Assembly: GCA_011109175.1 (NCBI GenBank)
Contig: RDEW01000034.1
Location: 242,140 to 306,139 of the forward strand
Length of the DNA: 64,000 nucleotides
Direction of reading: 5' to 3'
Source: Dicyema japonicum
Taxonomy: Eukaryota; Dicyemida; Rhombozoa; Dicyemidae
This document shows, in pieces, positions 23,900-47,155 of the stretch. Position 1 is the first letter of the stretch. Each line of letters starts with the position of its first letter. A model generated the notes under the pieces. It was not told where the DNA came from and searched no databases. It saw only the letters and a list, made by a program, of their open reading frames with translations. Position numbers and translations under genes: made by a program.

Positions 23900-24197
23900 C
23901 CATTTTTAAATTTTCCATATTATTGGAAAATATTTTAATTATTATTCAACCAAACTTTAATTATTATTCAACCAAACTGCCAAGTGGCGCCAACTTTAGT
24001 TTGGTGCTATGTGACTACTTGAATTGAAGCTTTTTTGTTTTTTTTCCTTTTCTTCCTCTTTAGCTCCAAGAGATTGAATTGTTATCTCGTCATGTGGTTC
24101 ATCATCTATGTGGCTTCAGATATAATCCTAAGTAATACAAAAAAGGGACATTAGTCAACAACCATCGTGGTCAAAGAGCCACGGCTGCCGACCCCTG
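23900..24197 (-). mobile_element. hAT-like transposon end
   Basis: Reading inward from 24197 on the minus strand, the sequence begins CAGGGGTCGGCAGCCGTGGC, very like the widespread hAT terminal inverted repeat CAGGGGTCGGCAAC. The interior is A/T-rich with a 20-bp direct duplication at 23935-23978. The other terminus was not found. A related end occurs at 32711. It abuts the dynein pseudogene. Confidence 0.5.
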
Positions 24198-24222
24198 TCC
24201 TAAAGGATTACAAAAAAATAGA

Positions 24223-25580
24223 TAAACCAACTTTTATGGAATGCTGATTGGGGATCTCACTTCTAATGAGAGGCAGAAGATCATGACTATCTGCACAATC
24301 GATGTCCATACAAGGGATGCTGTAGAGAAATTTTATTCAGCAAAAAAGTTCATATTGGGCACTAACGAGTAGGTTGAGAATAGTCAAGTTTTCACGTGGC
24401 TGTGCCAACTCAGACACTGTGTGATGAAACCAAAAAGGACTGCTTCATTAAAATATGTGACGCCATCTTCAGATATTCCCATGAATACTTGGTTGTACTC
24501 CCAGAATGGTTATAACTCTACTAACTGATCGGTTGCATCCTTTAATAGCTGAAACAACTAAGGATTTGGAGAAGCTCATTGGAATTATGGCCTACATGTT
24601 CAACTGCTAGGAGAACATATGGATTGTAAGGTTCAAACTGTTTATGAATTAGTCCGCTGGTAATATTTACACATGACTGACTCAATCAGGGGTTGGAGAT
24701 GCTTTGTTGTGTTTAATAGAAAATCGGTGTAAGTATTATCAGTTGTGGTGAGGTTGATAATATTCAGGACATTAAGATAAGAAAGATATTCATTTTATGT
24801 GAAACTGGGTACTACCAACTATTGAGATATTTCTAACTATGAATTCTGTTATGCCGGGGTACTGAACTCCCGGAAAACTCGAAGGCTTTATTCAGCCATA
24901 TAGTTATCTGATTTTATGGCCATGTGTCATGTTGTCTCCGATTTTGAGATGAATTGTGAAATTGGTGAAGGCTTATCGGATGCGGAGTTTTGGCTCATTA
25001 GCTTAAAAATCTGTACAGTTTTGCAAGGAACTCATTTCCAAACAAGATCACTATAATTGGGACTTTGAGCCATCAAATAAGTCCTGGTTCTCTTAAAGAG
25101 CAGATTTACAACGACCGGAAGACCAGGTAGACTAAACATTAACATTTTAGGTTCTCATGAGAGCTTGAGGGACTTGAATATACCAAAGATAGTCACTGAT
25201 ATTTCCCATTTTTATTGGACTGATTAGAGATTTTTTCACTTCTATTGATGTCCACAGAAAAGGGAATTTAGAATTGTGAAGAACATTCGAAAGGCTACCC
25301 CTGACCTGAAATTACAACCTGAGGAAAACATTATATTAAAAGTTCATTTTGTCATAAATTGTAGGTCGTCCAATTGGTGGAACTGCTGGAGGTCTGTCAC
25401 TCTGTTTTTATCAGTGGAAATGCAGGGGTTAGTAATAGCATGACTTTGCAGATGTTTTTAAAGACACACAGGAATCTCAGATAGAAGGGACTCGCCGTGG
25501 ATCTTAATCCTAAGGTCGTCAGGAACGATGAACTCTACGGAGTATTAAACCTGGCAACGAGGAAATTATCTCAAGTATTC
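24223..25580 (+). pseudogene. Axonemal dynein heavy chain pseudogene, part 1 (AAA1-AAA2)
   Basis: Outer-arm beta-type dynein heavy chain (DNAH9/11/17-like), the ATP-driven motor of cilia. The frame opens with [20 protein letters not shown] (linker end). It then gives VFTWLCQLRH, CDAIFRYSHEYL, the AAA1 Walker B region (CF..FNR), the ELPENL-like stretch, DLNIPKIVTD, DLKLQPEEN and the AAA2 entry GNAG, ending at VDLNPKVVRNDELYGVLN near 25560. The AAA1 P-loop (GPAGTGKTE) is deleted near 24535, and the AAA2 Walker A lysine is replaced (GNAGVSNS). More than ten stops or shifts show decay. A 23-nt intron persists at 25342-25364 (...LK|V.QLVELLE), so this is a DNA-level copy, not a processed one. It continues at 33972 after a large insertion. 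Confidence 0.9.
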
Positions 25581-25639
25581 AAAATTATGGTTATTTTACG
25601 TGATGCTGTCTGGTTCTTGGTGAATAAAATTGTATTGGT

Positions 25640-26515
25640 GTGCATAATGCCTATCCCTGAAATCTACTGAGCATCAACAATCAACTCCCTAAATCCACCG
25701 AGTATCATCCCTCAATATCTTCTGAGTCATGCCTCGTCCTTTGCAGGGAAGTTCCCCGTACCCTGCCACTGTTAACTCTCCTGCTAATTGTCCACCAGCC
25801 ACGGATCCCGAAACAATTTTGCGCCTTCCGCACCGGGATTTGATCGAGATGGTCACGAAGAAGAGTCTCTCGCTGCCGCCATGAGGACCAACATTCGTTC
25901 TTTTATGGGAGGAACTCATATCCCCAGTTGCCCCACATCTACTAACCATACGCGGGAGACACATAATCCGAACAAGGAAGTGAAAGTGCTCCGTCTCAAG
26001 AGAACTGTTCTTACGCAGTTAATCGAAGGTGGTACCCGCGCAGTCATCAGGGTATTTTTTTCAAGTGAACTTATAAAACCGACTCCCGGAGTCTACAACA
26101 TTTTGCTGAACAAGCACTCTCTGCCACCCCACAGCCAACTCCAATTGCTCCTCCAGCCGAATTGAGTCCCCATGAATGCATCAACGATGAGGTTCTCCTC
26201 GCAATACGGAACAGTGGCGTGCTAGACCGAATGAGACCTGGCCATCTGAAAGATCTAAATCTTTGTCAGAATGTGACCAGGAACTTCGTCCTAAGAATTC
26301 AATTACCTACTTATGAACCGGATTCTGTCTGGAGTACTTCCTGAAGTTGTCCGCCATGTTCTGTTCTTTACCAACTTGATAGCCTTAAATAAGAAGGGCG
26401 AAGGAGTACGACCGGATGTGGTTGGGTTTATCTCCATAAGGCTGGCTGTTAAAATTGTTTCAGACATTCTATTCCACTCGTCACACAAGATACTCCCTTT
26501 AGGATTCTGAGGTGA
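25640..26515 (+). pseudogene. Family A retroelement, N-terminal half
   Basis: Frames at 25788-26165 and 26162-26510 read GGTRAVIRVFFSSELIKPTP, GVYNILLNKHSLPP, ECINDEVLLAIRNSG, LDRMRPGHLKDL and RILSGVLPEV...VRP. This is the part before and into RT block 1 of family A (the 'AGGLDGLRPQHL' and 'KK.GGVRPI' motifs). It starts right at the break in the dynein pseudogene and has the same orientation as the family A C-terminal half at 32340-33900, so the two may once have been a single insertion. Confidence 0.65.
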
Positions 26516-26669
26516 TAAATTTAGCCGTCAGTTGCTGGATTGGAATTAAATTGCAGTAAATACGAAATCTACAATTGTGGACATATATAAAAGATGCATT
26601 AACATGCTTTGTCATCTTTCGCGAATTTACTAGCTGGAAGTATTTCCACGCCCTATAAAGTATTTCCAC

Positions 26670-26906
26670 CTAATATGGATATTCATCAACCAGACAAAAA
26701 TATCCTTCACGAAGAAATTGAAAATCTCGGGGATCACCTCTGACATAAACATGTCCTATTTTCTCACTTAGAAGCATCTCCGGCAGCTGGTCGAGAAATC
26801 TAGGTATAATCAAATGTATTTTTGGTGGCACTAAGACTTTTTTTAAGGATTGAAATTTTTCTACAAACAATTCATTGAGCCATTTGTAGCTATGCTTGTA
26901 TGTCAT
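26670..26906 (-). CDS. Unrecognised 78-codon frame
   Basis: ATG at 26906 to stop at 26670. The product contains KWLNELFVEKFQSLKKVL, PPKIHLIIPRFLDQLPEM and GDPRDFQFLREGYFCLVDE. It has a protein-like residue balance, unlike chance A/T frames. No family is recognised with confidence. It could be an exon of a decayed gene or element. Confidence 0.3.
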   Translation of the reverse strand: MTYKHSYKWLNELFVEKFQSLKKVLVPPKIHLIIPRFLDQLPEMLLSEKIGHVYVRGDPRDFQFLREGYFCLVDEYPY

Positions 26907-26909
26907 GGG

Positions 26910-27969
26910 GAATCAACCTGTCATTGACGAATGAGCAAAAAATCATTGACATTTAGTTTTTGACAGCCATTACTATTAATAATTTCGAGAAACTAGAAAA
27001 ACTATTCGCCTAATCACTTGAAGACCTTATCCGACGAAATAAATTTGGCTTCCTGTGCAGGCAGGGCAACTCCCACAGTACACATCCATGACGTGTTTAT
27101 GAGAAGGGTATACATCACCCCTCTCCGATTTCTATTCCCCAAATCATCTTGCACACAGTTAAGTTGCGTTGGGTCCTAGAAGGCGCACAAGGAGAAAATG
27201 AGAAATTTGATTGAGGCCTTCGAGATCTAGCGATTCTGTAACTCTCCATACCTTAAATAGCCGATTCATGATTGATAGATGAACTGCAAACCCCATTCAA
27301 TAGTGACGGCTGTCGAGTAGTAGTAGTGTCAGCCAGTAATTTATGTAACTTACACCCTGATACACTTTCGCTCTCGCATCTTGCAAGCGCCATAGGCGGA
27401 ACCCTAAGTATTAATGTGTTTATGGGTAAGGCGGGAGTGCATTTAACTAGCCTCTAATGCTCAATTCATTAATTTAATGATGGAAGATTATTCCTGGAAA
27501 TGTCACCTAAAAAATTATTTGTGACACTCTTTACGTCTTACAGACAACAATATACAAGGAACCTAAGACTACGATTAATGATGTGACAATCCATTTTACA
27601 GCTACAGAAATCATTAATCCAAGGAAGAAATCCAAGTTAGAACATCTGCCTGTGCCGACCAAATTCATTTTCCAAATAGTCCATTACAGGCCTTATCTTT
27701 AGAAAGAGGTAGCAAGTAGGTCCGTCCTCTGCCATTTTTATCACACGTCTTACTTCGCGGACATCACTTCATTTTTAGGCAAAGAATTTTCATAATGGTA
27801 ACCTTCACCAGTGGAGTTGGTCAGGGAGAAGGCATGAAGGTCCTTTTCAACAACTATGTCGTGCTAGAAGGACTCCGGTTTACGAGAATTGACCTTTGTT
27901 AAAGAGTCCATCGGGTTAGACCTCACGGCAGTAAGATCCGATATCATCAGACGTTACTTTCAGCCAAGA
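26910..27969. other. No gene recognised; one LINE fragment at 27715-27825
   Basis: The 27715-27825 piece pairs with 16740-16860. The rest is unassigned. Confidence 0.4.
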
Positions 27970-30139
27970 GGGCCTAGTATCCTATTATTGTAGACAATCT
28001 TATTTTTATATAGATACTGGGATCAACAACAACAACACCAGAGATCACGATCACACAAACTAACTAATCACGTGATACCAGCACGCTCTAGCAAATGCCT
28101 CATCTTGGCCCGATGCTTCTCCCTCGTCCCCGCACAAGCACGTATCGGTCGAGTGACTAGACCTTCGCAGTCACGACGGCGCGATCCGTGGTTCATTCTT
28201 ATCAAGGCTTCAAGAGGCATTGGTGGCTGGAGTTCTCCAGAAATCTAGCGTTCAGTGACTTTGGAGGCTCTTCTTTCGGCTAGTTTCGATCTTCAAGACA
28301 TTCGTCTAAGAGATGAGTGTACCCATATATCGCATTCATAAGAGATGCATGGTTCAATAAATTGTTTATATACAGTTCCCAAAACAGAATGCTTTCCGAT
28401 CTTCTATAAGCCTGTGAGGCATTTCAGAACAATAGTTTTTTTTCGCATTTCGTAATTACGCTTTTAACATGGACAAGAATGACATATGCATGTCAAAAGT
28501 CACCCCAAAGATCCTTGGGATTTTCTATAAGGAATAGCTTCATTGTTTGCCTTTAGTTCGACCGTCCGTATTCCCAGTCTCTTGTCTGAAGTAAATAGGG
28601 TTGTGACAGACTTTTCACTGATAGTAGTTAGGCGATTCTTCGATAGCCATTTGTCAAGCCGGTCCAGATTTTCTTGCAATTTCAAAATGGCAATCTGGAT
28701 GTCTGATCGCGTGAGGCAATGACGATGTCATCGGCATAAGTTAGAATAATATTATTTTTGGAGTCTGGAGTGAAAGTCCGCCATGAATAGGTTGAATAAA
28801 ACTGAAGACAAAGGGAATCCTTGGGGAATTCCGTTAGGGAGAAGCCGTGAAGTAGACCTTGACTGGCCAATGCAGACGCGTCCCCTCCGATTACTAAGGA
28901 AGTTAGCTAGCCAGAGTTTGAGCTTTCCAGGGATCTTAGGTAAATTTTCCAAGTAAGAATCCGCCTTGACAGAGAGTCGAAAGCCTTGTGGATGTCTATG
29001 GAGCAAAGTATAATCTTCATGTGTCCCGGTCTGTGCGAGAAACCATATCGTAAAATTAGTCAATGCAGATAAGTGGGTCGAAGTAGACCTTTCCTTTTTA
29101 AAACCATGTTGAAATGACAAATCCAGAGGAAATTGATTTTCGCAAGAACCAGCCTTTCCAGAATTTTCGACACCGAGCACAATAACGCGAGCGGTCTGTA
29201 TGAAGCTGGGTCCTTCTTCATTTTACCGGGTTTCTAAATTGGACGTAAGTGGGCCAACTTCCATAATGCTGGAATACAATTTTTGTTAATGGAGTGATTG
29301 AATATCTTCGTTAATGCAGCGATTCCATAGTCTCCAGATTCTTTAGGAGGATCATTGGGATCTCATCCAGTCCGTTAGAATAGGCTGTTTTAATGGCTTT
29401 CAATGTATATCTCACGTCGTTTTCAGTGAAGTGAATCGTTTCCGGTTACTTTTTCGGTTTACTGAGATGTTTCGGGGTACATCCGACTTCTTATGGTCTT
29501 TATGGGATATTTTCACATAGTATTTTATTAGGTTGTTTAAGTCCTTTTGGCTATGGTTCACATCGGACGATCTTTCATCCCTCTCGAGGCGTCTCGGATG
29601 GTCTTCCAAATTACAGTAGTGGGTCTATTTCTATTCAACGAGGACAACACATGCTTCCATCTTGATATTTGTGCTCTTGCCTCCTGTTTTTTAGTTCATT
29701 GTTCAAAGCCTTCAAGTCTAGATTTATCCTCAGAAGTTAATCGGTCAGACTTTTTGAGTTTGTTTCTTTCCTTGGTTAATGTCGACCTGCCATATCCCCT
29801 GGTGTATTTTAGGTGGTGTTTAGGTACAGATAGTGATCTCGCGTCCAAGATAGTGCGGTTTACATAAGCGACTACTTTGTCCATGGAAGTAATACCATCC
29901 AGGTGCTGCAGTAGATTGTCAGTAAGTGTACGGTAATGTGTCCAATCTGCCCGTTTATCTTGCCTCTTACTCCATTGATATTCAGTTGAAGAACCGTGGT
30001 CCGTTTCTTGCGGTTGACTAAGGGTTCCTTTCGGGTAGATGAGGATGATAGAGCATGCCGCCGGGAAACAGTTTCCTCGGAGGTGGATGTCTAATGGTGC
30101 TCTTTGGAAGAGCATTAGGTGCTCTCTGGGAGTTACCAA
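27970..30139 (-). pseudogene. Family J (jockey/CR1-like) LINE, RT-bearing copy
   Basis: Read from 30139 to 27970. The linker (HYRTLTDNLLQHLDG...RSLSVPKHHLKYTRGYGR) is followed by the RT with GFKKERSTSTHLSALTNF, then GIPQGFPLSSVLFNLFM, then LTYADDIVIASRD (YADD catalytic motif near 28720), then RLDKWLSKNRL. The C-terminal part runs to a 3' end with CACGTGATTAGTTAGTTT at about 28060. At least four frame changes and several stops. The endonuclease domain is not present upstream of 30139. Length is close to 2.2 kb of the roughly 4 kb expected. Confidence 0.8.
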
Positions 30140-30190
30140 AATTTACAGAATCGGTGAACCACATAACGCCACTCTACTGAAAAACTTAAT
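30110..30190 (-). repeat. Short dispersed repeat (SINE-like 2), copy 1
   Basis: On the minus strand AGAGTGGCGTTATGTG.TTCACC...ACTCCCAGAG recurs at 32064-31960 and 57408-57290, giving three copies in the same relative order. No coding frame. Confidence 0.45.
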
Positions 30191-30286
30191 AAATTTGACT
30201 TTTTGGAGTTATTTAATGTTATTTATTTTATATATTTAAATAAAATTTAGTGTTAACTTTTTAAATTAAAATTAGTTTTATTGTCA

Positions 30287-31782
30287 TTAAATGCTTTCTA
30301 TCGTTTCTTTAATGATTAAAATAGCTTCCAATAATTGCTCCTCTGTAATAGTCAATGCCGGTGTAAATCTAATTTTATCCACGTGGGTCGTTTTTGTGAG
30401 AATTCCATTTATCATTAATTTCCTGCAAATTTCATCTGCGTTGTATTCTATGAATTAAGCGGACATTTCGACTTTCATCGATCACGATTCCATTAAGAAG
30501 ACCTTTGCCACGGACAGTTTTTATATATTTTGGGTCGATCTTGTTCATTTCCCGTCTAAAATTTGTCCGAGGTATTCAGCTTTCTCAGCGAGGTTTTCTT
30601 CTTCGATGACCTAACAAAAATAGTGATCACATCTACCTTCAAAGCTTCTAAGGAAACTTTACATGCTAAAGGATTCCCCCCAAATGTGGATCCATGAGTC
30701 CCGGGTTTCAAGGTCAGCATTATTTCGTCATCGGCTAGAACACACGATACCTATTTGAAGGTTATAGACGAGGAAATTACTGGTAAAAATCCACCAGCCA
30801 GGGATTTCCCCAAAATGAGAATATCTGGTCTCACTTTCTCATGGTCAACGCAGATTCGCCAAAATTTTGTCAAATTCAAAATACTTGCCAGTTCTCCCAA
30901 GTCCAGTTTGGACTTCGTCCGCGATAAATAAGACGTTGTTCCTTTTCGTTATTTCCCGTACTCCTTTGAGATACCCTACTCGAGGGAGTCACGATTCCAG
31001 CTTCTCCCTGAATAGGCTCAACCATAAATGCGCACACATATGGATCTCTGCAAGCTCTCTACCAAATAAAATGTCCCCGAGTACTTCTAAGCTTTCCAAG
31101 TCGTCGTAGGGGATCATAACATTTCCAGGTATATAAGGACCGAACTCTTCATAGCACACAGGATCGCTAGATGAAGATAAAGCTGCTAAGGTCCTCCCCC
31201 AAAAATTATTTAAAGTGAAAATTATTTTGGCTTTATCCTTCGGTATTTTTTTGATTTGATACCCCCATTTTTTAGCCAATTTGCAAGCGGTTTCTCCTCC
31301 CTCACTTCCTGGATAATGATTTGGGTCAAATACCTGAATTCATAGGCAAAACCTTGTCATAACCAAACAAGTTGGTTATGTATTCCGAATATTCTGAATA
31401 AATGTTGTTATGAAAGGCACGAGATGTGAGAGTGAGAGTATTCGCTTGCTCAGTTATCGCCTTCACCAACCGAGGGTGGCAGTGTCCTTGATTCATGGCG
31501 CCGTATCCACACAGGAAGTCGTAATATTGCTTCCCAAACGTGTCCCATACATAAGGCCCTGCAGTGATAATTGGAGAGGACCTTTTCCCTCCTTAATTAC
31601 TACTCGTTGTGGAGCATAATTGTGAGCAATATATTTATCTACCATTTGAATCAGATGTGTGTCCTCTTTGTAGATTATTCCGTTTCTCACAGAAGAGACT
31701 GTTTGAAACGAATTAATTTACCCTTTTTCGAAAATTTCCTTAAAAAACACATTTGCTTCAGCTCGGATAATAAAACCAACAT
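30287..31782 (-). CDS. OAT: Ornithine aminotransferase, nine exons, probably disabled
   Basis: PLP enzyme transferring the delta-amino group of ornithine to 2-oxoglutarate, normally in mitochondria. ATG at 31782, TAA at 30289-30287, AATAAA at 30282-30277. The first 25 residues are Lys/Arg-rich, like a targeting peptide. Exons: 31782-31722, 31698-31582, 31558-31334, 31308-31085, 31058-30885, 30859-30781, 30750-30637, 30610-30473, 30447-30287. Introns are 23, 23, 25, 26, 25, 30, 26 and 25 nt. Motifs: [77 protein letters not shown] (PLP lysine), [10 protein letters not shown]. About 430 aa, the family length. Lesions: an extra base near 30980, a missing base near 30558, and intron 5 ending TG instead of AG at 30860. 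It is a young pseudogene, or a functional gene with assembly errors. Confidence 0.9.
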
Positions 31783-31959
31783 AATTTGCTTTAAATAGGC
31801 CGAACCGAGAATGTGTCTATTAAATAATATATCCATAACTTTCCTAGAATTAATTGTTTTTACACAGAAATTGTGATATTTATACGAAATCCAGTTTCCG
31901 TGGTCGCAGAAGCAGGCATCTTCCAATATTAAACAAAAATCCATCTAGAATCGGCAAAA

Positions 31960-32064
31960 GGGAGTTAAACATCAAGGAATCTCTTCAATTGAGTGGCGGA
32001 AAACAAATGATCGTTTTACACTGGGAGTATCTGAGACTGGTGGATCCCATAACACCACTCTAGT
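31960..32064 (-). repeat. Short dispersed repeat (SINE-like 2), copy 2
   Basis: Shares AGAGTGGTGTTATG.GATCCACC and ACTCCCAGTG with copies at 30190 and 57408. Confidence 0.45.
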
Positions 32065-32339
32065 AGAATGAGGGGAGATATGGAACTGAGCATACACAAG
32101 CACGTTACGGAGGTATAACCGGATCCATGTAGTTGAACAGGAACGCTCCTCGGTTTACGGATTAGAGATTCCAGAGGCACTGGAGAGAAAACCTTCCTAG
32201 AAGTCAATCTCCCTTAAACTCTGAATTCCCTTTTCTGGTTAGCTTTAGTCTCCACAAAAATGCCCAATGGACCCTATGAGGCGTATGTGTATGGAATGCA
32301 TAGTTATATGTACGACTTGTCGACGGTCTAAGTATATAT

Positions 32340-32710
32340 GTGTTTTGGCCTACACCCCTCTCTGCAGGAAGAGTGCAGCAGATCTGCCAGATATATGGCT
32401 TTGAACGAAGTCGTTAGGTGAGCTTTGGACGCCGCTGGACACCTTCCATGCTCGAACCAGTCGATCTTTGCAGCCGTGACGGATAACGACCAGATGGGAT
32501 GACCATCTTCCCCTTTGAAGCCAGGAAACCTCTTGTCTGTGACGTCTTCCCTTTGCAACCTATCCAGAGCCTGTTCTGCCGTTGAGAAAGCCGAGAGGTT
32601 GAAACGGGAAATATACGCGGTCCTACCCAAGGATTTTTTATTGGTCCATTCGTCGTTGAAACGTCTGGTTCCCTTGGCCTGCGACACTGGAATTCTTGAG
32701 TCTTCTAGGG
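32340..32710 (+). pseudogene. Family A retroelement, C-terminal part before hAT insertion
   Basis: Across frames reads ARHMALNEVV.RALDAAGH, the DGKRPDG-like region, FPFEA.KPLV and VVETSGSLGL, and breaks off at SLLG exactly where a 1.06-kb insert begins. The reading resumes at 33775 (NRISARTRDPREFNWLFERI). Confidence 0.65.
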
Positions 32711-33774
32711 CAGGAGTCGGCAACTGTGGCTTGAGTTTTTTATGTGACTCTTATTGAAATTGATTACTTACATCCCATTAAAAACATTCTCAAGATAGTG
32801 TTCTTCTTCCAAAATGTTTTTTATTTATTTAAATTATTACATATTTTTGAATATTTTTATTGAAGAAATTTTACTCGCTTAATCACAAATTATGTTTGAC
32901 TCTTCAGTAAAGTGTTTAATTAAAAAAATAAGTAAAAAACGGATAGAAAACATCTTTATAAACTTCAATGGACTGAGATTTTTTGCCATCATATCAGATG
33001 ACTTTCCATAATGTCTTTTTTGCCACGGAAAATTCAACCAGAAGAAAAAGTCAAATCTGGAGAGACACTAATTCAAAGCACGGTAATTTTTCAAGAAAAT
33101 ATCCAATGTTAAAATTGAAACTTCAACATTTAATTATTGGAAACAGTCTGCCAGGACTTATAATATCGGAAGCTTCATCGTCAGTCATGAGATTGCAAAA
33201 TTTAGAATATCATTCGCGGATGGTGAATACATCAAATCTTGTTTTCTAAAATAGTCACAACAATTATTTCAAAATTGTACGAATAAAACAGATTTTAAAT
33301 CAAATTAAAAAATACATAGTTATCTGCAAAACAATTGCGAATTGTCTTAATAAGATATCATGTGGCGAGTCAAATTACTGATGTTAATTTGTAATCTTGT
33401 CTTAAGTTCAAAATGACAAGTCACAAGCCAGACATAACATTATTGGCGAAGGAAATGCAGGGTCAATTATCTCATTAATTTGATTAAATATAATTGTCAA
33501 CGTCCGTATGTGGAACTCAACAAAAACCAATCAAAATAAAAATTAGTTATCAAGATAATTCAGATTTTTCTAGTTGAATGTTGTAATTTTTAGTTAAAAT
33601 CGGTAATATTTTCAAAACATAAAATAGCAAAAAACCAGTCAATATGAATAGAGTGTCATTTTAATTAAATTTTATTATTCATAATTAACAAAAAACTTTA
33701 TTAATATTTAAAAATAATAAAAAATGAAGACTTACCTATGACACATATTCTCAAATTATTACGAATTTTCCCTA
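32711..33774 (+). mobile_element. hAT-like insertion in family A copy
   Basis: Starts CAGGAGTCGGCAACTGTGGC, a hAT-type terminal repeat, and is about 75% A/T with no transposase frame. The family A reading frame is continuous across the insert. The 8 bases before it (TTCTAGGG) and the last 8 bases (CTCTAGGG, 33767-33774) are 7/8 identical, as expected for a hAT target-site duplication. The right terminal repeat has decayed or is missing. Non-autonomous. Confidence 0.6.
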
Positions 33775-33900
33775 GACTCTAGGGAATCGGATTTCTGCAC
33801 GAACAAGAGATCCCCGTGAGTTCAACTGGTTATTTGAGCGAATCTCGCTCGCCATCCTGAGAGGGAATAGTCACCAGATCAGGACGCCCGTTTGACTTTT
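33775..33900 (+). pseudogene. Family A retroelement, 3' end after hAT insertion
   Basis: Reads NRISARTRDPREF, then NWLFERISLAILRGNSHQI and a stop. Continuation of 32340-32710. Confidence 0.65.
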
Positions 33901-33971
33901 GTTCATTCTATTTTGTCATTAGTAAAATTTTGTTTTAAAATTTATCAAATTCAAGCAGAAACGCCGTAAAT

Positions 33972-35760
33972 AAATTATTCTTGATTGTGGCATTAATCCA
34001 ATGTGGATCGAATCTATGAATATTGTAATGAATCATAACAAAGTGATCATTTACTATATTTTAGATGTTATCTTTGCTTAGCAATGAGAAAATTTCATTA
34101 AAACTTCAATGCGAATGATCTTTGAAATTTTTAACCTCAAAACTACAACCCAACGACTGTCTCGAAAGCTGGGATCCAGTTTATTTACCCCGGTGACGTG
34201 GGGCGGTCTCCTAATGTGAACAGTTGGATCGAGGCTAGAGAGGTTCAGACCGAAAAGGCAAATCTGACAACTCTGTAATACAAATTTGTCCCGACTTATT
34301 TGGAAACACTGAGGACCCGATTCAAAAAGATAACCACAATCTCGGATATTGCACCCGTCCAGGTTCAACTTCAAATCGATCCTTTAGATACTTTACAGTT
34401 TACTGGAAATTATGCTGACCCCCGAGAACACCACCCTGGACTGTTCAAACGAACTCTACGAGATATACTCTGTGTTTTCTTGCGTCTGGGCGTTTTGAAG
34501 TTATCTGTTCCAGGATCAACATGACTGAGATATATGTGAATAGCTTACTGACTACCGAGTCGAATTTTCATAGTGGTAGTCCAAGGAATTTAAGCAGATA
34601 AAGTTCCTAACGACAGGAATTCTGTTCGACTACTTCATTGACAATAAGACCTGAAATATGAGCCTTGGAGTAAGTTGATAACAAAATTTGAACTCGATTC
34701 TGACCCAACTCTTCAGGTTCAAACACAGGAAACAGTTAGAATTCTGAGGTTCCTCAACAAATTGATGGAGATTCGACGTTGAAGCTGCCGGGACCGGGAA
34801 GAGTTGTATGCGGAATAAACTGAAAGAACTCTCTGACGACTTTCTCGTGGCAAATGTTCTGTTCAAATTTTACACGACGTCGGAAAAGCCCCTGGAAAGA
34901 AGGCTGGATGGACCTCCTGGGTTGAAGAGACTCATTTACTTTGATGACCACATGAACATGCCTGAGGTAGATAGCCAACTTAAAGTAAGTCTGTTCAGCT
35001 CTACCAGAGATGTAGTATCAAAAACGACCCACAATTTTTTACTGACTGATGCTCAGGTAGACAAATAAACTAGACTCTTAGATCCTCGAAGAACAGTTCC
35101 TGGTTTTGATTAACGATCTACTGTCGACTTGAGAGATTCCCGATCTCTTTACAAACGATGAATACGAGACACCCATCTCTGGAGTCCGCAATGAATGCAA
35201 ATTAACAGTAATGATGGACACAAGAAAAAACTGCTGGAACAAGATCGTTAGGAAGGTTAGAAGAATCTTAAAGGTGAGCACGTGGAATTAGTGAAATAGA
35301 CTATACTGTGCTTTTCTCCACTCGGAATAAGTTGAGAGTCCACGAATGGCCGGAAGATGTCATGATTTCCGTCAGTTACAGACTCCTAAGTGAGGACGAG
35401 CTTTTGACGAATCAATTGGCCGAGAATGTCTCAAAACTCATGGCATTTGTCCACAAATCTGTTAATGAAATCAGCCAACAAGATTAAGCCAAAGAGAAAA
35501 GATATACAACCACCACCCAAGTAATTCTTAGAGTTGATAAAGCTATACCAGGCTTTACTGAAGTATCACCACAGGGAAAATGGGCATTAAAAACTTAAGA
35601 GTACCTCATAACTAGTCTATGATCTGAAGGAAGTTAAATTGACCATAAAGAAAAAACGGGAACAAACTAATCCAAGTAATGGGTGCTGAGTGTGGTGACA
35701 AAGTCTCTACCACCGAATCACAAGAGTCGAGTTAGTCTATCCTCAGCCAAGCTAATCGAC
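33972..35760 (+). pseudogene. Axonemal dynein heavy chain pseudogene, part 2 (AAA2-stalk base)
   Basis: Picks up about 17-20 residues after part 1 stops. It shows LDCGINPMWIES, IFNLKTTT, NSWIEAREVQTEKANL, LETLRTRFKKITTISDIAPV, DYFIDNKT, the AAA3 entry, NKLKELSDDFLVANV, LIYFDDHMNMPEVD, LLTDAQ, EEQFLVLINDLL, MDTRKNCW, LCFSPLG, HEWPEDVMISVSYRLL, AFVHKSVNEIS and NKLIQVMGAE at the stalk. The AAA3 P-loop is lost (GPGRV for GTAGTGKS), and about 18 residues are deleted before HEWPEDV. Three introns remain: 34043-34064 (22 nt), 35057-35081 (25 nt), 35274-35299 (26 nt). Stops and shifts are frequent but sparser than in part 1. The end beyond 35760 fades; the C-terminal AAA5-6 region is not in the window. 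Confidence 0.9.
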
Positions 35761-36319
35761 TATATCAAGTGATAATAACTGTATGTAGACAATATCACTA
35801 AGTGACGCATGTTGATTTAGTCTAAGACGTCATTAGGTGACTAGAAGCCTTTAGTATATGGAGGAGGTCTCAACTCTCTAAAACTTGAAATCAATAGCCA
35901 TTAGGAAAAAAGTAAATGTGGTTGTTCTAAGAAAACCTAGTTTTACAGCACGGTCAGGTACACCAAAACAAAAAACCTCGGACATCTATTTTATTTAATT
36001 GTTCTCATTTTAGCCATAATAGATTTTCATTAATCTCAGACACAAAAATCTGTCTCTCAAGAAATGGGATATTAAATAAATCTACCAGAAGACCTTACAT
36101 CCTCTATAACGAACGACATGAGAATACAGCATTGTAGTTCTCTTGAAATCGATAAAGTGGATCGATGGTTATATTTTGTTAGCTTTTACAAAAAATGAAA
36201 ATCCTCTAGTTTAATCTGTGTCATGAGCCAAAGAAAATCTTCAGTATTGAAAATCTAAATTCTAACCGTAATCTCAGCAAAGCACGAGAAAATGGGATCA
36301 CTTAATTAAAAAATTCCCT
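35761..36319. other. No clear gene; possibly fading dynein stalk
   Basis: Could continue the dynein stalk but nothing aligns with confidence. Confidence 0.35.
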
Positions 36320-36640
36320 TTCTTACCTCTGATGGCGTCATTGGATCCACCTTATAAGGAGACTCCCAATGCCTGGCCGGCATTCAAAAGGATCCAACTA
36401 TTCATTCATGGGGACAATTTCGTTCCTTGTCGACGAGTTCTGAAATCGACCTCAACTCCATGGATGACGCCCTCTGGATCACTGTTCTTGAGGAAGGTCT
36501 TGCTGGAACGCGTCAGCATCAAGGAATTAGTTAGTTTGGTTTTATCCGTGGTCTTGAGGCAATTTTGTTTATTTATGAGATATGCCAAAATTCTTATCAC
36601 GTGGGATGGTGCGTTAATAAACAAATCAAAAAGGTCACAC
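36320..36640 (+). repeat. SINE S1, copy A
   Basis: One of four copies (also 40310-40620, 51430-51710 minus, 60720-60990 minus). Shared core: GGCGTCATTGGATCCACC, CCCAATGCCTGG, AGGATCCAACTATTC and GAGTTCTG. The 3' tail TTAGTTAGTTTGGTTTTA is shared with the end of family J LINEs (43060-43020). Confidence 0.7.
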
Positions 36641-36696
36641 GTGACATGGAAAGCTCGTTTATAATATTTAAAATAAATAAATGAATAATTTTAATA

Positions 36697-38277
36697 TTAA
36701 TTTATGATTGAATTAAAAATTGGTTTGTAAGTTGGTGATGGTCTTTGGATGGTTATCGGTGAGCAACTAGCAAAGATAACGAAGATCACCCCGCAAATAA
36801 ATTGTATGCTAACCAGAAGCACGAATGTGTATAACCATTGAATTCCAGTCTCTAAAACACTCAAATTCAATTACTATGTCTGTGACTATCATTGAAGTGA
36901 CTAATATAAAAAATGCACTCAATAGTGATCCAAAGCTGTTCACAACTCCCGTAATGTACTCACTGTGATTCCTGTCGATATCTTCAATGTTTGAGAATGT
37001 AATTGAACTACATATTCCAGTACAAAAACAAGCTATTATGATAGAGAATTCCCCCAAAATTGCGTTGGATGTCAATGAAGCGAAAAGTAAGGACAATCCT
37101 GTAGGTATGAGACCTATTTGAAAAAATTGATCTCAACCGATTATGGCGAACAATTTAACAGCAATCAGCTTTTTCAAGATTTTCTTTTTTACGAGTAAAT
37201 CGCAAAAAGGAGTTCCAATGATATCTCCAAAACATATAAAGATGGGAAAGATGACAAACGGAATTTGCTAAAATAACGACATAATCAACATTTTTGACTG
37301 TTTTATGGTAAAGACCATCAATCAAGAATGGAATATATGTACATATTCACCACCAAACTTAAACTTCCGCAAATTTGAACACCAGCCACTGCTAAAATTG
37401 ACACTGAAGTAAAAATTTTCTTGATTGGTATATCCAGTAACTAAAGGTAACTTAGATTGATCATACATTGTAAACTTTTAATTCTTTTACTTATCTACTC
37501 AAGCTTTCCTTCTCATTGATTAAGATCCATGTGTTATCTATGGGAAAATCCGTTATAAATATCATTAGTAAGAGACAGCAGATCACCTCAAGGGCACCTA
37601 AGATGACGATAAAAATGACAAAAATGCTAAAATGTTAAATGGCAGTTCCCATGGTCCATTTTTATATGAATTGCTTGCCACTGCTATGTAACTAAGAAAT
37701 ATTTCCAAAGTATGAGCTAACCATAATGATTCGACACCTGACGATGCCAATTTTATTATTTTGTTTTTTTCTCTGGTGGAGTCCAATTTTGAATAAACAA
37801 ACATAGAGAAGGCAGAATTCCACCCTATTTGTTTTTTAGACAGCATTGAACCTGAATAACTCCCATAATAAATCTAGCGAATCCAACTGCATAGGTGGAC
37901 CTTTTCAAAGCTGATGGAAGTATGACAAAAATTAACGTAGATTGTATAGTCATTATTAGAATCATGAATTTTGGTCCGTATGTGTAAGACAGGAAGGGAC
38001 CGATCAGTTGAGAGAGGCTGTATCCTATGTAGAAAGTCATTAGAACACCTCCCCTCTCCAAATTTGAAAAAATAATATCTTTCTATTCCAAATGACCTGA
38101 TTTAATACATTGTGAGGATTTTTTGAATCAACAGTCAAAATAACGGCCAAGGTTATGCTGAAGCAGTGTCTTTGAGCCTCCATTATTAAAATACACATGA
38201 ATCCAGTGAGTGCCGTGAATAAATTTCCTTTGGAAATTTCTTACTGGTTAATATTCTGCCTTACCAAAATGTAGCAT
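36697..38277 (-). CDS. SLC17-like MFS anion transporter, probably disabled
   Basis: Membrane transporter of the sialin/vesicular glutamate transporter family. ATG at 38277, TAA at 36699-36697, eight exons. Introns: 38240-38264 (25), 38083-38108 (26), 37825-37851 (27), 37441-37466 (26), 37268-37289 (22), 37114-37137 (24), 36850-36874 (25 nt). The first membrane segment is FTALTGFMCILIMEAQRHC, then LERGGVLMTFYIGYSLSQL, the MFS loop YGPKFMI, FARFIMGVIQGG...NWTPPE, IKLASSG, then paired helices to VIFVIFASCSP at the end. Coding length of about 1400 nt fits the family (about 470 aa). All lesions lie in the fourth and fifth exons: a shift in an A7 run near 37765, a shift near 37637, an in-frame TAA at 37493-37491 and a shift near 37347. 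Substrate unknown. Pseudogene or assembly indels. Confidence 0.85.
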
Positions 38278-38599
38278 TTATGAACGCAGTAATATGCGTT
38301 TATATAGGCCAGAAAATAATAACGAACTTCGTTTCCTACAGAAGAGAATTATTTTATGAGCGACTTCAGATAGTCTTTAAGAAAAAACGAGAGAGATCAT
38401 TTTGAGCAAAAGGACTGTGTTCGTCCGCAGGACTTGATGAGACCTTACTACTAGTTATCGCCGCAGGATCCCTTAATTAAACTGAAAAAATTTTTCAGCT
38501 AACTAAGTAATGACAAAAAATGCTGTGTCGAGTGTTCCTGTTCACATTGGACACGTCGTGAGCGCATATCTAACGAGTTTTAAAGGTATCTAAGAAGGA

Positions 38600-39380
38600 T
38601 TTCGTAGAGGAGGTTCATGGTGGGTTGGATGTTAACAAAATTGCTTCAAGATGCATAGACTTTAAATTAGTTCAATCACTCAGTTTGCTGCTTCTTTCAT
38701 TATGGTTAACTTGTGCGAGGGAGAAAGAGAGATTTCCAGTAACCATGATGATTGTGTTGCTTAGGAGGATTCTTGGTGTTATTCTATAGTGCTTTTTGAA
38801 TTAGAAAAGATTAAAAAGGGTTACAAAGGAGTCAACATTGAGTCCTGCAGTTCTTGTATATCAGAGTGATGTTCGATATGCTTTATCCCTGGTAATATGG
38901 ATGATAACATCGGCGTATAAGACAGAAGGAAGTGTTTGTCGAGAGGTTATAGCATGTAATCTACACACAGGTTGAGGTTTGTCGGTAAAGTCAGAACCTT
39001 TGGGAACTCCGTTCGAAAGAAGCAGGCATTCGATCTCAAGAGAACTTGTATAAATTCTCAATACACTTTTTATTCACTTCAAGATATGTCCAAACCACGT
39101 GCAACAACAATTTATTAACTTTAGAGTTAAGAGTATTCTGGAGAGTATTACATTGAGTGCTACCTTTAAGGCTTGGACTCTCTCCCGGACCCTTCCTCCT
39201 ATTTTAATTTTCCCAAAACGTTTCTTCCAGTTTTATTTATGTGTACTGGATCTTTGATATCCTCCTGAAAGCGTTAATTTGATTCTCCACAATCCTGCTG
39301 ATTATTGCTAGCAGCTTGTTTTTGTCCTCGCTTGACAGTCTATCTCAGTTTCTTGTTTAAGGAGAGCTTAAATGCACCTC
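38600..39380 (-). pseudogene. Family J LINE, RT fragment
   Basis: The minus strand reads ALLKQETEI and later LLLSNGVPKGSDF, then LYADVIIHITRD, a decayed form of G-x-P-Q-G-S...YADD. Truncated at both ends. Confidence 0.55.
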
Positions 39381-40309
39381 TCGTTGTTTTCTCCAGGAAA
39401 GATAAGATCTTCTCCTTCTTTGGAGAAAAGAACCATCCTTCGCACCACAAAATAGGCTAGGGAGAATAATTCTTTTAAGATGAACAGGTAGCTAACGTGC
39501 AACTTTTGTATCCATAGGAGTGACTGAAACGCTATTGTTTTCATCCCCCTTATGTCCTCCATGCAATCTTCCACGTGTCCATAGTCAACGCCCAAATGAC
39601 TCAGACTGCGTGTATTGTTAACTCCCAGTTTGTATTCAGGTTTCAGTGTTTTTCCTATTGCTTATTTAGAGTGCGCATGGTAATTTTACGGGGGTAAATC
39701 TAATCCAGGAACTAGAGGTAATCAATGCAAGGCTCCTTAGCGGAAATTTAGGAAAGATAGAAAAAACGTCAGACAGTTAGGTAAATCCCAGTTCCCGCAA
39801 TCAAACGAGCCATCCAACGTCTGTGGTCTCCCATTGTTCCCACTACCGTGCGAGAGAGCCAACCAATCGAATTTCTTTTGCCTTGGAAAAGAAATGGCTA
39901 AGCGGGTTTCCGTCCTTTTTACAGACCTGAAGGAATCCGGTGTTTGCGATTCCCTTGATCTTCCCATAATAATTTAATCCGTTAAAAGACATAAAAGTTA
40001 ATTCAACTAATATGAAATAAAGTCCATTCATGACCTCTCAATGACTTCGATTTTAATTTGGATAATTCACACTATTATTTTATTTAGGTCTCAGATTTAA
40101 ACAGAATGTCTTTTTAAACACGTGTTCATTATTATCTGTAAAATCACTATTTTGAGTCTCATGTTTGTCCCCAAATTGTACGCAGCCTATTTTGTTGAGG
40201 AAACTAAACACAATGCTGTGTAGTTTTATCTTAAATAGAAAATTATTTTTTGTTTTTTGAGAGTTTTGTCTTAAAATTATGTTTATTCCTTGTGGACAAA
40301 TACTATCAT
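39381..40309. other. No gene recognised
   Basis: Frames of 60-80 codons without recognisable content. Confidence 0.4.
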
Positions 40310-40620
40310 GATTAAGTGGTGCCATGTGGTTATTTTATTAAGGTTTCCCTTCATTCCTTCTACTGGTGTCATCTGATCCACCTAACTTAGGAGACGTCCA
40401 ATATCTGGACCTCATTCAAGAGGATCCACTTCTTCATTCCAATAAGAGACTATTTTTCTCCTTGGTGACGAGTTCTGACCTCGACCTTAGCTTCTCGGAT
40501 GATGTCCTCTGGATTACTGTGCATATGGTCTACTAGAACTCATATGGATCACGGGATTAGTTAGTTTGGTTTTACTCTTGGTTTATGGAATAATTTCATT
40601 TGTTCGCAAGCATGATTTAC
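40310..40620 (+). repeat. SINE S1, copy B
   Basis: Begins GTGGTGCCATGTGGTTA and ends ATTAGTTAGTTTGGTTTTAC. About 70% identical to copy A throughout. Confidence 0.65.
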
Positions 40621-41020
40621 TTCAGTTTAGTCAAGTGTAGATTGTGTTAATCTTTCAGCTTCTTAGCGATAATCACAGGTATTTGAAAGCACACCTGTTT
40701 GGATTTCCATTTAGAATGGCTTTCATCTTATATTAGCTGATTTAGAAATTCTGGACATACAAGAAAAACGCGATAATTTAGAATTTTAAATAGCACTTAT
40801 TTTAGTTAAAATAAAGTTGATTGATGGCTGCTGTATTTGTGGATCATCGTATGCGTCAGAATGTCTAGGCGGGGATGCCTCAAAAATTCAGTTATTCCTA
40901 CTCTAACTAAACTTATTGATGTTCCTGATAGAGGGCTACGTCAATATTGGAAAGTACACACTCTAAACTCTCTTTGTTCCCGACATTTGACTGTAGGGTT
41001 CTATGTACAGGGTTCTCCTG

Positions 41021-41164
41021 TCAATAACGACACGTCGTCAATCACTAACGACAATAGTCATTCAATAACGACAATATTCAATCATTAATGACACGTCGTC
41101 AATCAACAACGACACTTGGACAATCAATAACGACAATATCAATCAACAACGACATAATTGCGAC
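41021..41164. repeat. Irregular tandem repeat (CAATCAATAACGACA)n
   Basis: Seven or eight units built on TAACGACA or CAACGACA, spaced about 17-21 bases, some carrying CGTCGTCAAT between units. Minisatellite-like and non-coding. Confidence 0.75.
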
Positions 41165-41279
41165 AAATATCTTAAACGATTAAGTCAACCATAAACTTGT
41201 TTATATTACTCACTCAAAAAGCTTTGAATTTGAAATAATAAAGTTCCATTTAACGTCACACCCAAACTCAATGAGTCGA
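41165..41279. other. No gene recognised
   Basis: Unassigned. Confidence 0.4.
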
Positions 41280-41650
41280 TACTTTTATTACTCCTCCCAT
41301 AATTGAATAGATTTTTACAAGTTATAACGCAACAATACAATAATCCAGCTGATAGGATGGAATGGCTGTTTTCCCTACAACTGCCAAAGAAATTCCTTTG
41401 GAACAAGCATACCCGACGCACATTAATAACTTTCGAAATTATTGACCCAAGCGATCTTATAAAGAGACCGTGTTGGGTCCAAGGATTCCGCTCGTCTTAA
41501 CAACTGTAGAGAGGCTGTCGTATTTTTTATCTTGAAGTGCTCGATAGTCCAAACAGCCTCCACAGCTTTCAACGCGGAATCAGTAAGTCTCGACTGGGAA
41601 AAGATGTTGATACAGGCTCCATCCCAAATCAAGTATTTACCAAGTTTTTG
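41280..41650 (-). pseudogene. Family A retroelement, C-terminal fragment
   Basis: The minus strand reads LIWDGACINIFSQSR for the LVWDATC.DTF hallmark, then VVKTSGILGPNTVSL. Truncated and frameshifted. Confidence 0.55.
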
Positions 41651-43014
41651 TCATTTTTGGGGTTGTATTGGTCGGCGAGGTTGTACAGAGAAACAAATTG
41701 TACTATTTTCCTTACGGATTACTAATGATTAACTTATCTTCCAATGTCATGTTTATCCAATCCTTGCATTTATGGGAACCTTTCCAATGGAGGATGCGAA
41801 TTATAAATATTAGGGAATAAACCAGGTTCACCTTGAAAAAAAGTGAACTGAGATTTTGTTACAGCAAAGATTACATATTGGGGGATAGCCAGTCATACAC
41901 CAGGTGAAGAACTAATTCTCCACAATGATCTATAAAAATCGATCATCGCCCCAATCTTCAAAGCCAGCAAGATCCTTACTACCCTTCATCAGATGATCCA
42001 CTTTACAGTTTGTTGTGGAGATTCCATGTGTCCTGTGCCACAAAAACCCTCACTCTCGTCGCAGACTAGCACTGTCAATCAATTATCACGTCCAACTAAA
42101 TAAATCGAGCACAATATCATTCAACTGGGAACCTCACAAAAAGACATCACATTGATGTCTATTGCATGAGTCCATATTTCGGAGTGGAATCCTAACACCA
42201 AAGATCCTTGACTATTTGGTAATCCGACGTGAAAGACGGAAAACTTGGGAGAGTTTTACTATCTATAATATGTCACTCGGTTCCTTACGAGATCATCCAC
42301 TGTGTCTATAGTCCCTACAAAATAATGATTGCATCGAACTGATGACTACAACCCTACAAACTTCGTCCATTCGTTTTTCCTCAATTTCATTACTAACAAA
42401 ACTCAAGAACCTAATCATTTGTGGATACTTTAATGTGAGGCATTTCTTTGTTCCATATGGAAAGCTCATGAAAAGATTTGGAAATTGAGGATCTGTAAGA
42501 TTTTTTGCATCCTCAAAAACTCGACCCTTCACACAAGAACCATCTACTCAAAATGATGGTAAACCATGATCCTCTGACCTCTCTTCAATATAAAAGTGAT
42601 AAATTGGAGCATTAACAATAAGCATTTGGTAGCAGTAATCTGATCCTTTACATTGATATTCTGTCAAATGCGACATTCTGGGCATTCACAGCTTGTTCTT
42701 TTTGAACTTGAATACACGATCATGTATACAAGAAAATTTGCCAACCATAATCAACTATGACCTCGGCAATTGATGAGGCATCAGTCAATACGTGGTTGCA
42801 TGGATGTTCTATTGATCAAATAGGCAAATGTTCAAACAATCATATGAAGCAAGAACACTATTCAAATGGACAGAATTTCTCCATTTTCCGAACACTAAGG
42901 CACAAAAACATTGATTAAAAAACGAAATAGTCCCAAGAGGAAGACCTCACCGCTAATGCTGACACCTAAGGAGACTGCTGAAAATGGGAGATGGTGCTTA
43001 TTTATTTTATTTAT
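41651..43014. other. No gene recognised
   Basis: A 79-codon minus frame (42532-42293, no ATG at its start) contains DPQFPNLFMSFPYGTKKCL but matches nothing I know. Probably LINE debris. Confidence 0.35.
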
Positions 43015-43520
43015 TTAACACCCAAACCACGGTAAAACCAAACTAACTATCACGTGATCTCGATTTCCACCAAAATCTTCATCCTTTCCCGGTGTTCCTC
43101 CTTCGTACCCACACAAGCTCGTACTGTGTGGCTGACAGCATTTGCAGGGCCACCTTCCCGAGTTAGTTTTATGAAGGCCTCCAGAGTAGTCGGTCCGGTT
43201 TTGTGTTTCCCACAAGTCTGCCGCTCTGTGACTCTGAAAGCTTTCTTTTGTACGTCCTCGATTTTCTTAGTATTCGTCCATGACAATGAAGGTCCCCAAG
43301 AATCACACAGTCGAGAAGCATGCATGGTTGTTTGTAGATATTTATCAAGACCGGGTGGCTACCGGTCTTCCATATTCCAGATAAACATTTCAATACATTG
43401 ATTTTCTTTTCGCACTTCAGAACAATGTTTGCCACGTGTGGTGACAAACATAAATGCCTATCCAGTGTCACGCCCAGGATCTTCAGACATTTGCTGAAGG
43501 GGATTTCAACGTTGTCCAAT
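43015..43520 (-). pseudogene. Family J LINE, C-terminal end and 3' tail
   Basis: The minus strand reads PFSKCLKILGVTLDRHLCLS, VLKCLSGIWKTGSHPVLINI and IYKQPCMLLDCVI, the section after the RT palm. The 3' end CACGTGATAGTTAGTTTGG at about 43050 defines the tail shared with SINE S1. Confidence 0.65.
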
Positions 43521-43530
43521 TTAGAATATG

Positions 43531-43600
43531 ACAGCTACTTTCCTGCAGCAAAATCATATATTGTATTTTTTAATTAGAAAGTAAATATTTAATTATTAAT
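43531..43600 (+). mobile_element. MITE, truncated second copy
   Basis: ACTTTCCTGCAGCAAAATCA and the following A/T core match the left half of the MITE at 193-350. The right inverted repeat is missing. Confidence 0.55.
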
Positions 43601-44449
43601 TTTCTACGATTAATTTATTTATTTTATTATGGGTGTTAAATAAATAAAAATAACTTAACCCAAAAACACCAATAGTTAATATCTTGAAATTAATTAGGTC
43701 ATCGCGACAATCCTGATGAGCATTCTAAGCTTCTCTCGATGTTGGACTTTTGACCCAACACTATAAATTTCTTACGATTAATGTAATTTTTTATTTAATA
43801 TTTTTTGAATTTTCTATCTACAAATTCTGATCTTGTTGACTATTATTCATGAGAATCGAATTAATCTCTTCAATTTGCCTCAAAATATAGAGAAATCTAA
43901 TTTTTATAAGAAAAGCGGGTTTTCCTGATATAAGATACTGAAAAAAGGACACGTTGTTTATCAGACACGTCTGTGCAAATAAATAGATTACCTTTTAAAA
44001 TCGAAAATCAGCATTGTTTAATTAAAGTTATACCTTCTAAGATCAACTAAGGTACTGATGTTTTTCATCACAGTCAATCTTCATAAATTACTGAATTTTC
44101 AAATAATCCAATGAGTGATCAAGCCCATCAAACTTTTGGAAAAATTTGTTATCAAACGATTAATACATATTTTTTATCTATTAACTTAGTAATACGTTTC
44201 TAACCAATTCTCCACGGGGGACAAAAGTCACCGATAATCAGAGACGTAGCGATCTTAATAAGTGCAGATCATATGCGGATTTCAGCTCCTTTTCACTTTT
44301 TGAATATATCATTCGTAGAAAGTCAGTAATAAATATTTTGGGATTTCTCTAATTTAATTATACACAACATCAATTGAAGAAATTATTTTTAAATTTAAAA
44401 ATATAAATTAAAATAAATTATTAATAATCATTAAAATTTTATTCGTAGG
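43601..44449. other. No gene recognised
   Basis: Very A/T-rich; nothing supported. Confidence 0.5.
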
Positions 44450-45587: not shown

Positions 45588-45900
45588 ATCGCTTCTATCA
45601 ATCAGTGATAGAAGCCGCCGATACACATAAATTTGGAAAAAACGACTCCTCTCAAAAGAGAAACGCTTTAACTACTATGGAGGTGCACAAAAAAGCTTCC
45701 GATTTTGTTGAGGTCTACCGGGATCACTTAAATATATTGTCTTCTTTTTTGGTATTCCCTTTTTCGTGGTTAGAGAATTATAATAATGTTAGTAGTCCAT
45801 ACATCAGACGGTTACTCACTTTCTATTGGTCAAGGAGTCCTCGAATTCGAAGAGGAAGTCGAACTGATACTAGAAGTTCTTTATGNTTGACAAACTCGAT
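45588..45900 (+). repeat. Dispersed coding-like repeat, copy 1
   Basis: Matches 59335-59530 (GAAGCCGCCGATACAC, GGAGGTGCACA, GAGGAAGTCGAACTGATACT). Copy 1 has about 110 extra bases at 45735-45840. The shared translation AADTHK.GK...EVHK suggests an element's ORF. There is an N at 45886. Confidence 0.45.
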
Positions 45901-46676: not shown

Positions 46677-47155
46677 TATTATCATTAAAGCACTTTTAAA
46701 AAAGCCAAAATACCTCTTACCTTGCATGTAGCAAAATAATCAATTCTTAATGTCAATCTCTTCCACACACCTCGATCGTTAATCTAGGTAAAGCGTCGTT
46801 TTCAACTCTAGTTGCTAAGGAAATAATGTGCCTCGTTTCTCGATTTGATAACAATCTCTAGATAGCAGAAGATACAAAAGAATGCATAGCTTCTGCAGCT
46901 CCTCACATTCAACGCNTATTATCATTAAAGCACTTTTAAAAAAGCCAAAATACCTCTTACCTTGCATGTAGCAAAATAATCAATTCTTAATGTCAATCTC
47001 TTCCACACACCTCGATCGTTAATCTAGGTAAACCGTGGTTTTCAACTCTAGTTGCTAAGGAAATAATGTGCCTCGTTTTTCGATTTGATAACAATCTCTA
47101 GATAGCAGAAGATACAAAAGAATGCATAGCTTCTGCAGCTCCTCACATTCAACGC
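46677..47155. repeat. 239-bp tandem duplication with an N at the junction
   Basis: Units 46677-46915 and 46917-47155 differ at only about four positions. The single N (46916) lies exactly between them. It may be a true tandem duplication or a contig join artefact. No gene inside. Confidence 0.85.

Follow-up and report, generated by a model that had tools for sequence, protein, structure and literature searches.

The window, the whole stretch of 64,000 nucleotides analyzed here, corresponds to positions 242140-306139 of contig C120 in a Dicyema japonicum assembly of 64,672,829 bases and 191 contigs. Its GC content in 2-kb blocks is 0.33-0.42, and the recognized introns in the genes studied are 22-30 bp long. 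The assembly is similar in size, GC content, short introns, and repeat load to the published D. japonicum genome (67.5 Mb, GC 36.7%, mean intron 38 bp, 49% repeats; PMC6736024). Positions below refer to the window unless a contig is named. The features at the locus are as follows.

24196..25604, plus strand: dynein heavy chain pseudogene, part 1; end of the linker region to AAA2, beta type DNAH9/17; 81-88% identical to C87; 12 indels in 24196-25308 common with C83
25605..26660, plus strand: retroelement A, left part; a copy on C127 matches 25725-25814, 25814-26483, and 26503-26660, with 25605-25724 unmatched by it; adjoins dynein part 1, also on C83
26679..27227: dispersed repeat of about 550 bp; at least 33 further copies, 78-81% identical (best 40 of 1294 candidates scored)
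27605..28025: segment beside the 3' end of OAT; 27605-27830 resembles a dispersed repeat, and 27671-28025 is common with C117
28026..30184, minus strand: LINE J; internal deletion at about 29956; RVT_1 match below the Pfam cut-off; empty site on C117
30211..31639, minus strand: pseudogene of a third OAT paralogue, intron-bearing; extent from a DNA alignment to C148b, with coding apparently continuing to about 31717
31640..32340: 5' side of OAT and further sequence; common with C117, where 31822-31969 occurs twice
32341..32710, plus strand: first of two pieces of the right part of retroelement A; ends with the left copy of the 8-bp target duplication made by the insert, TTCTAGGG (32703-32710)
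32711..33776: hAT-like insert; left terminus CAGGAGTCGGCAACTG; right terminal repeat unrecognizable; no recognized transposase
33777..33939, plus strand: second of two pieces of the right part of retroelement A; starts with the right copy of that 8-bp duplication, CTCTAGGG; junction to dynein common with C117
33940..35709, plus strand: dynein heavy chain pseudogene, part 2; AAA2 to stalk; 75-81% identical to C87; indels in the first kb common with C117

The two dynein halves lie on the same strand, and both match one beta-type axonemal dynein gene on C87 (minus strand, inside 2173000-2188999) with 75-88% identity, in four BLAST pieces with E-values from 0 to about 1e-121. On C87, the ends of the two halves are 8 bp apart, with TATGCGAG between them, and the break falls within an exon. 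The preliminary description had read the locus as one dynein gene split by an 8.4-kb nest. The two halves on one strand and their match to one gene agree with this, and the nest was measured as 8335 bp (25605-33939). The break lies in AAA2, as had been stated, and the half boundaries, placed earlier at about 25580 and 33972, are at 25604 and 33940. The loss of about 20 residues at the joint is not seen, as C87 has just 8 bp between the ends. The origin of the halves from different paralogues, which would have spoken against a single split gene, is ruled out because both match the C87 gene, and this gene is also the copy without the insert for which a search in the same genome had been proposed.

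In the printed alignment, the insertion site corresponds to about residues 2187-2190 of the DNAH17 chain, in AAA2. For the C87 pieces around the insertion site, DNAH17 and DNAH9 took the top two places among 84 and among 91 distinct sequences from solved chains. By this similarity, the C87 parent is an outer-arm beta dynein heavy chain of the DNAH9/17 type, and the window copy is assigned to the type by its match to C87. A DNA search of the assembly with part 1 yielded five matches: itself, C83 (92%), two pieces of C87 (81 and 88%), and a short stretch of C68 (79%). The search with part 2 yielded 20 matches, including C117 (92 and 97%) and C87 (81 and 75%). In part 2, 1024 bp of C87 is absent at 34990/34992.

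Degraded partial copies of the same dynein are observed at C68:672-674k, C131:283k, C28:38k, and C148:50k, and C28:23k is also among the matches listed. They were rejected as witnesses of the empty site; the alignments of C68 and C131 to C87 jump over it, and those of C148 and of one of the two C28 copies begin past it. A gap at about 8918-9697 of C87 (reverse-strand numbering) is common to the C68, C28:38k, and C148 copies, and this sharing suggests one ancestor that was already broken. At the right edge of the dynein copy, 35733-36348 is also present on C174 and mostly missing in the C125 relative; it is probably a further insertion at the edge of the pseudogene.

Short introns of the C87 gene are retained in the window copy (for example, GTGATCATTTACTATATTTTAG versus GTGATCATCGACCTCATTTTAG), so the absence of introns that marks a processed pseudogene is not observed. 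Retained introns, a parent gene present elsewhere, and a broken frame are all found, as in duplicated pseudogenes. Because the short introns are kept, the window dynein is a duplicated rather than a processed pseudogene. In part 1, up to 25308, 12 indels relative to C87 are common to the window and C83, and 10 of them are not multiples of three. In the first kb of part 2, up to 34990, nine indels are common to the window and C117; three of them are at slips of C87 itself, one is intronic, and five are left. The pooled differences between the window and the C83 and C117 dynein copies at codon positions 1, 2, and 3 are 50, 39, and 62 (P 0.07 versus flat). The retained introns, the shared frame-breaking indels, and these counts together indicate that the dynein copy was made at the DNA level and was already dead before the C83 and C117 copies parted. 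The spread over codon positions is not perfectly flat, and it counts against this explanation.

Private 1-bp deletions in the dynein comparison number 15 in C120 and none in C83 and C117; they may be real or assembly noise. Within about 410 bp at about 2180.2-2180.7k, the C87 gene has one TGA and four 1-bp slips of its own, the slips lying at or beside single-base runs. As long frames are open along the remaining gene, these are read as assembly noise, though C87 may be damaged. This reading also weakens the single-base lesions called elsewhere. One +2 shift in C87 is read as a 23-bp GC-AG intron, a type outside the intron-finding rules used.

The same strand and the single parent gene would also fit a living dynein gene with the nest inside a long intron. 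However, the break lies inside an exon of C87 with 8 bp missing, the frames of both halves are broken, and only the middle of the gene is found. No more pieces of the same dynein were found in the 184 kb of C120 around the locus among tblastx matches of at least 35 bits outside 24-36 kb. A living gene is thus extremely improbable. A Dynein_heavy match at C120:348487 was accordingly not assigned to the same dynein.

Retroelement A stands on both sides of the nest, as described earlier. In a single copy on C127, the sequences corresponding to 25725-26483, 26503-26660, 32341-32710, and 33778-33874 are collinear and in this order. This copy is continuous through both interruptions (26660/32341 and 32710/33778), and it contains 411 bp at 26483/26503 and 733 bp at 26660/32341 that are absent from the window. 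Given this collinearity, the two parts belong to the same type of element and are correctly ordered. At the boundary between dynein and A, no target duplication was seen; instead, 8 bp is lost relative to C87. Repeat searches scored the best 40 of 1294 candidates for the left part and the best 40 of 1385 for the right part; the left-part copy on C83, found by BLAST, is outside the former list. As to the reverse transcriptase domain expected of a non-LTR retroelement, the C127 copy has a YLDD stretch. Among the pieces of A tested from the window and C127, no relevant Pfam match was found; three C127 pieces had no match, and the fourth had two unrelated matches below the cut-off. The joined pieces of the left part found no relatives. 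One C127 piece found 20 relatives, none of which has a Pfam domain or an informative name (one, from a beetle, is annotated as "hypothetical").

The right part of A is interrupted by the insert at 32711-33776. The insert is flanked by an 8-bp target duplication, as is expected of hAT elements, whose two copies are alike at seven of eight positions. Two A copies downstream on C120 (window coordinates about 90118-90362 and 94602-95042) are free of the insert and read GTCTAGGGAATC and GTCTAGTGAATT, and the C127 copy is also without it. The left end resembles hAT ends. The paired terminal inverted repeats of hAT elements are not apparent, as no right end matching the left one was seen, and the one ORF tested for a transposase (32977-33249) had no Pfam match at E 0.5. 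An insertion inside the right half of A, as in the preliminary description, is thus confirmed. Its assignment to hAT is reduced here to "hAT-like" because of the missing right terminal repeat.

The reverse-oriented family J LINE reported within the nest is present. Its RVT_1 match (E 6.7e-6, 26.4 bits) is below the Pfam cut-off of 29.6, and an open YADD stretch lies nearby. At least 39 other copies are 79-93% identical (best 40 of 935 candidates scored). On C117, in a flank comparison that omitted self matches, the flanks of J are directly joined, GGGATCA to CTTAATAAA, and on C120 J stands between them. Because of this direct joining, J would have been inserted after the C120 and C117 copies parted, or it was cleanly lost from C117. 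The dispersed repeat at 26679-27227 is one more layer of the nest, beyond those of the earlier reading.

The OAT gene between the halves of A is present as claimed, but not as an intact gene, since it is broken by indels and a lost acceptor. It has Aminotran_3 matches with E-values of 9e-22 and 7.6e-11. The Aminotran_3 search of the assembly gave 15 matches (18 of 18 candidates scored) at four places: two on C148, the window locus, and C117. As the matches are confined to these places, the third OAT paralogue is found only in the nest and its C117 copy. The name comes from the C148b relative, to which OAT is closest; the window copy is 73% identical to it and matches Aminotran_3, the class III aminotransferase family. 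The window OAT covers residues 78-466 of a Capitella OAT. Its six recognized introns (23-30 bp) coincide in position with introns of the C148 OATs, which have seven. In protein sequence, it is 73% identical to both C148 copies, and these are 91% identical to each other. The differences between the window OAT and C148a at codon positions 1, 2, and 3 are 96, 39, and 228 over 387 codons. As they are mostly at third positions, the third paralogue must have evolved for a long time as a working gene.

The C120 OAT has one base added and one base lost, and the C117 OAT has lost about 100 bp and contains 1-bp indels. None of these frame-shifting indels is shared by the two copies. Both have lost the AG acceptor of an intron near 30859. 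Single-base lesions in OAT need caution because the alignments of the C148 OATs also show single slips (one and three).

Parts of the dynein, A, and OAT sequences occur a second time, on C83 or C117. Collinear pieces link C83:1074500-1082311 to the window from 3074 to 26498, and C117:261000-274469 (reverse) to the window from 27671 to 44293, in both cases mostly near 90% identity. The adjacency of dynein and A is also present on C83, without the last ~290 bp of part 1, and the A/dynein junction is also present on C117. The right junction of the OAT segment is common to C120 and C117. The link from the left part of A to the OAT segment (26498-27671) is seen in C120 only; C83 runs into Ns there, and C117 into another element with Ns.

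Single Ns were observed in several places. Two 239-nt copies, 99% identical, lie at 46677-47155 with a single N (46916) between them, as if overlapping ends had been joined in the assembly without being merged. Single Ns are also at 45886, on C117, and on C83; those on C117 and C83 look like joins. Such Ns with repeated ends (46916, C117, and C83), together with the one witness for the middle link, could point to an assembly chimera. The window has no N from 1 to 45885, however, and both sides of the nest are found again elsewhere in the assembly, the dynein/A adjacency on C83 and the A/dynein junction on C117. This recurrence argues against a chimeric arrangement, which is very improbable.

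The collinear pieces at about 90% over tens of kb could also be explained if C120, C83, and C117 were allelic haplotypes of one region and the nest were one locus. On the other hand, no second near-identical copy of the parent gene besides C87 is among the matches listed. Other parts of the window match C118 (94%), C148 (91%), and C115 and C95 (90%), so that the region resembles a mosaic of duplicated blocks and not a single pair of alleles. For D. japonicum, the genome paper gives 1.24% heterozygosity, with alleles merged (PMC6736024). The allelic explanation is accordingly improbable. Divergence between the copies is patchy, ranging over 1-17% in 200-bp blocks of the collinear parts (BLAST pieces above 150 bits inside set ranges), and gene conversion or several duplications are possible. 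In the comparison of 27600-38600 with C117, blocks a few hundred bases long switch abruptly from about 98% to about 87% identity and back, the pattern that gene conversion leaves.

Between the C120 and C117 OATs, 26 codons differ (11 synonymous and 15 not). After omission of four at the edge of the C117 deletion, 11 of 22 counted changes, one of which is in an unspliced intron stretch, are synonymous, against a neutral expectation of 22-27% (P 0.003-0.016). This excess hints at selection on OAT after the copies parted. OAT might then have been a working gene inside the nest until some time past the copying, with each copy broken separately. The restriction of the paralogue to the nest locus and its C117 copy, the concentration of its differences to C148a at third codon positions, the synonymous excess, and the private frame shifts are in its favor. 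However, the loss of the acceptor in both copies means that their ancestor may already have been damaged. The introns have diverged between the copies to the same degree as the exons (two differences in 155 bases), a similarity that gene conversion would likewise produce, and the long selection could predate the arrival of the gene in the nest. A working OAT in the nest is therefore possible, but unlikely. Somewhat less likely still is the whole history in which an intron-bearing host gene was transferred into a retroelement in a dead dynein, became the sole copy of its paralogue, worked there and stayed under selection while the locus was copied, and was then lost twice, once in each copy.

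The locus is, with high probability, a long-dead, duplicated, intron-bearing copy of an outer-arm beta dynein gene that collected insertions in a largely definable order. Retroelement A sits in the AAA2 exon of the dynein copy, at a site that has lost 8 bp of target. The hAT-like element entered A, making the 8-bp target duplication, and A has a further interruption, the segment with the intron-bearing OAT gene. Since it keeps its introns, is not bracketed by repeats of 16 nt or longer, and lies where 733 bp of A is missing, this segment probably came in at the DNA level, with filler at a break in A as the most likely route. Parts of the locus are present in second copies on C83 and C117. Both OAT copies, on C120 and C117, probably decayed thereafter, and LINE J, which would have come later, is in the C120 copy only. 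The order is defined for most layers, except for the hAT-like insert relative to the OAT segment. The earlier reading of a stratified nest of insertions into one pseudogene holds in outline, with the insert-free A copies on C127 and C120 and the empty site of J on C117.

Nested transposon clusters, of which the maize adh1 region is the type case, also contain elements within elements that can be dated by their order. The nest differs from them in having been built in a duplicated dynein pseudogene and in including a layer that carries an intron-bearing host gene. Like other duplicated (unprocessed) pseudogenes, the window dynein keeps introns, has a broken frame, and has its parent elsewhere; unlike the usual ones, it consists of only the middle of the gene, is split by the nest, and has further partial copies. 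The OAT segment resembles the filler DNA at repaired breaks described for maize p2/p1 (PMC2686159) in being foreign DNA at an internal breakpoint. It differs from the filler as described there in that it would be a near-complete gene, and its left junction is indistinct.

Nested insertions in pseudogenes are a known kind of structure, and this nest is a well-preserved example. The dynein break, the hAT-like insert, and J each have an empty site elsewhere in this short-intron, repeat-rich genome. The OAT layer lifts it a little, as the nest holds the only copy found, apart from that on C117, of an old paralogue. A whole gene with introns may thus land in a nest of repeats and be copied and lost there. 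If OAT did work inside the nest, such a nest would be a viable home for a gene.
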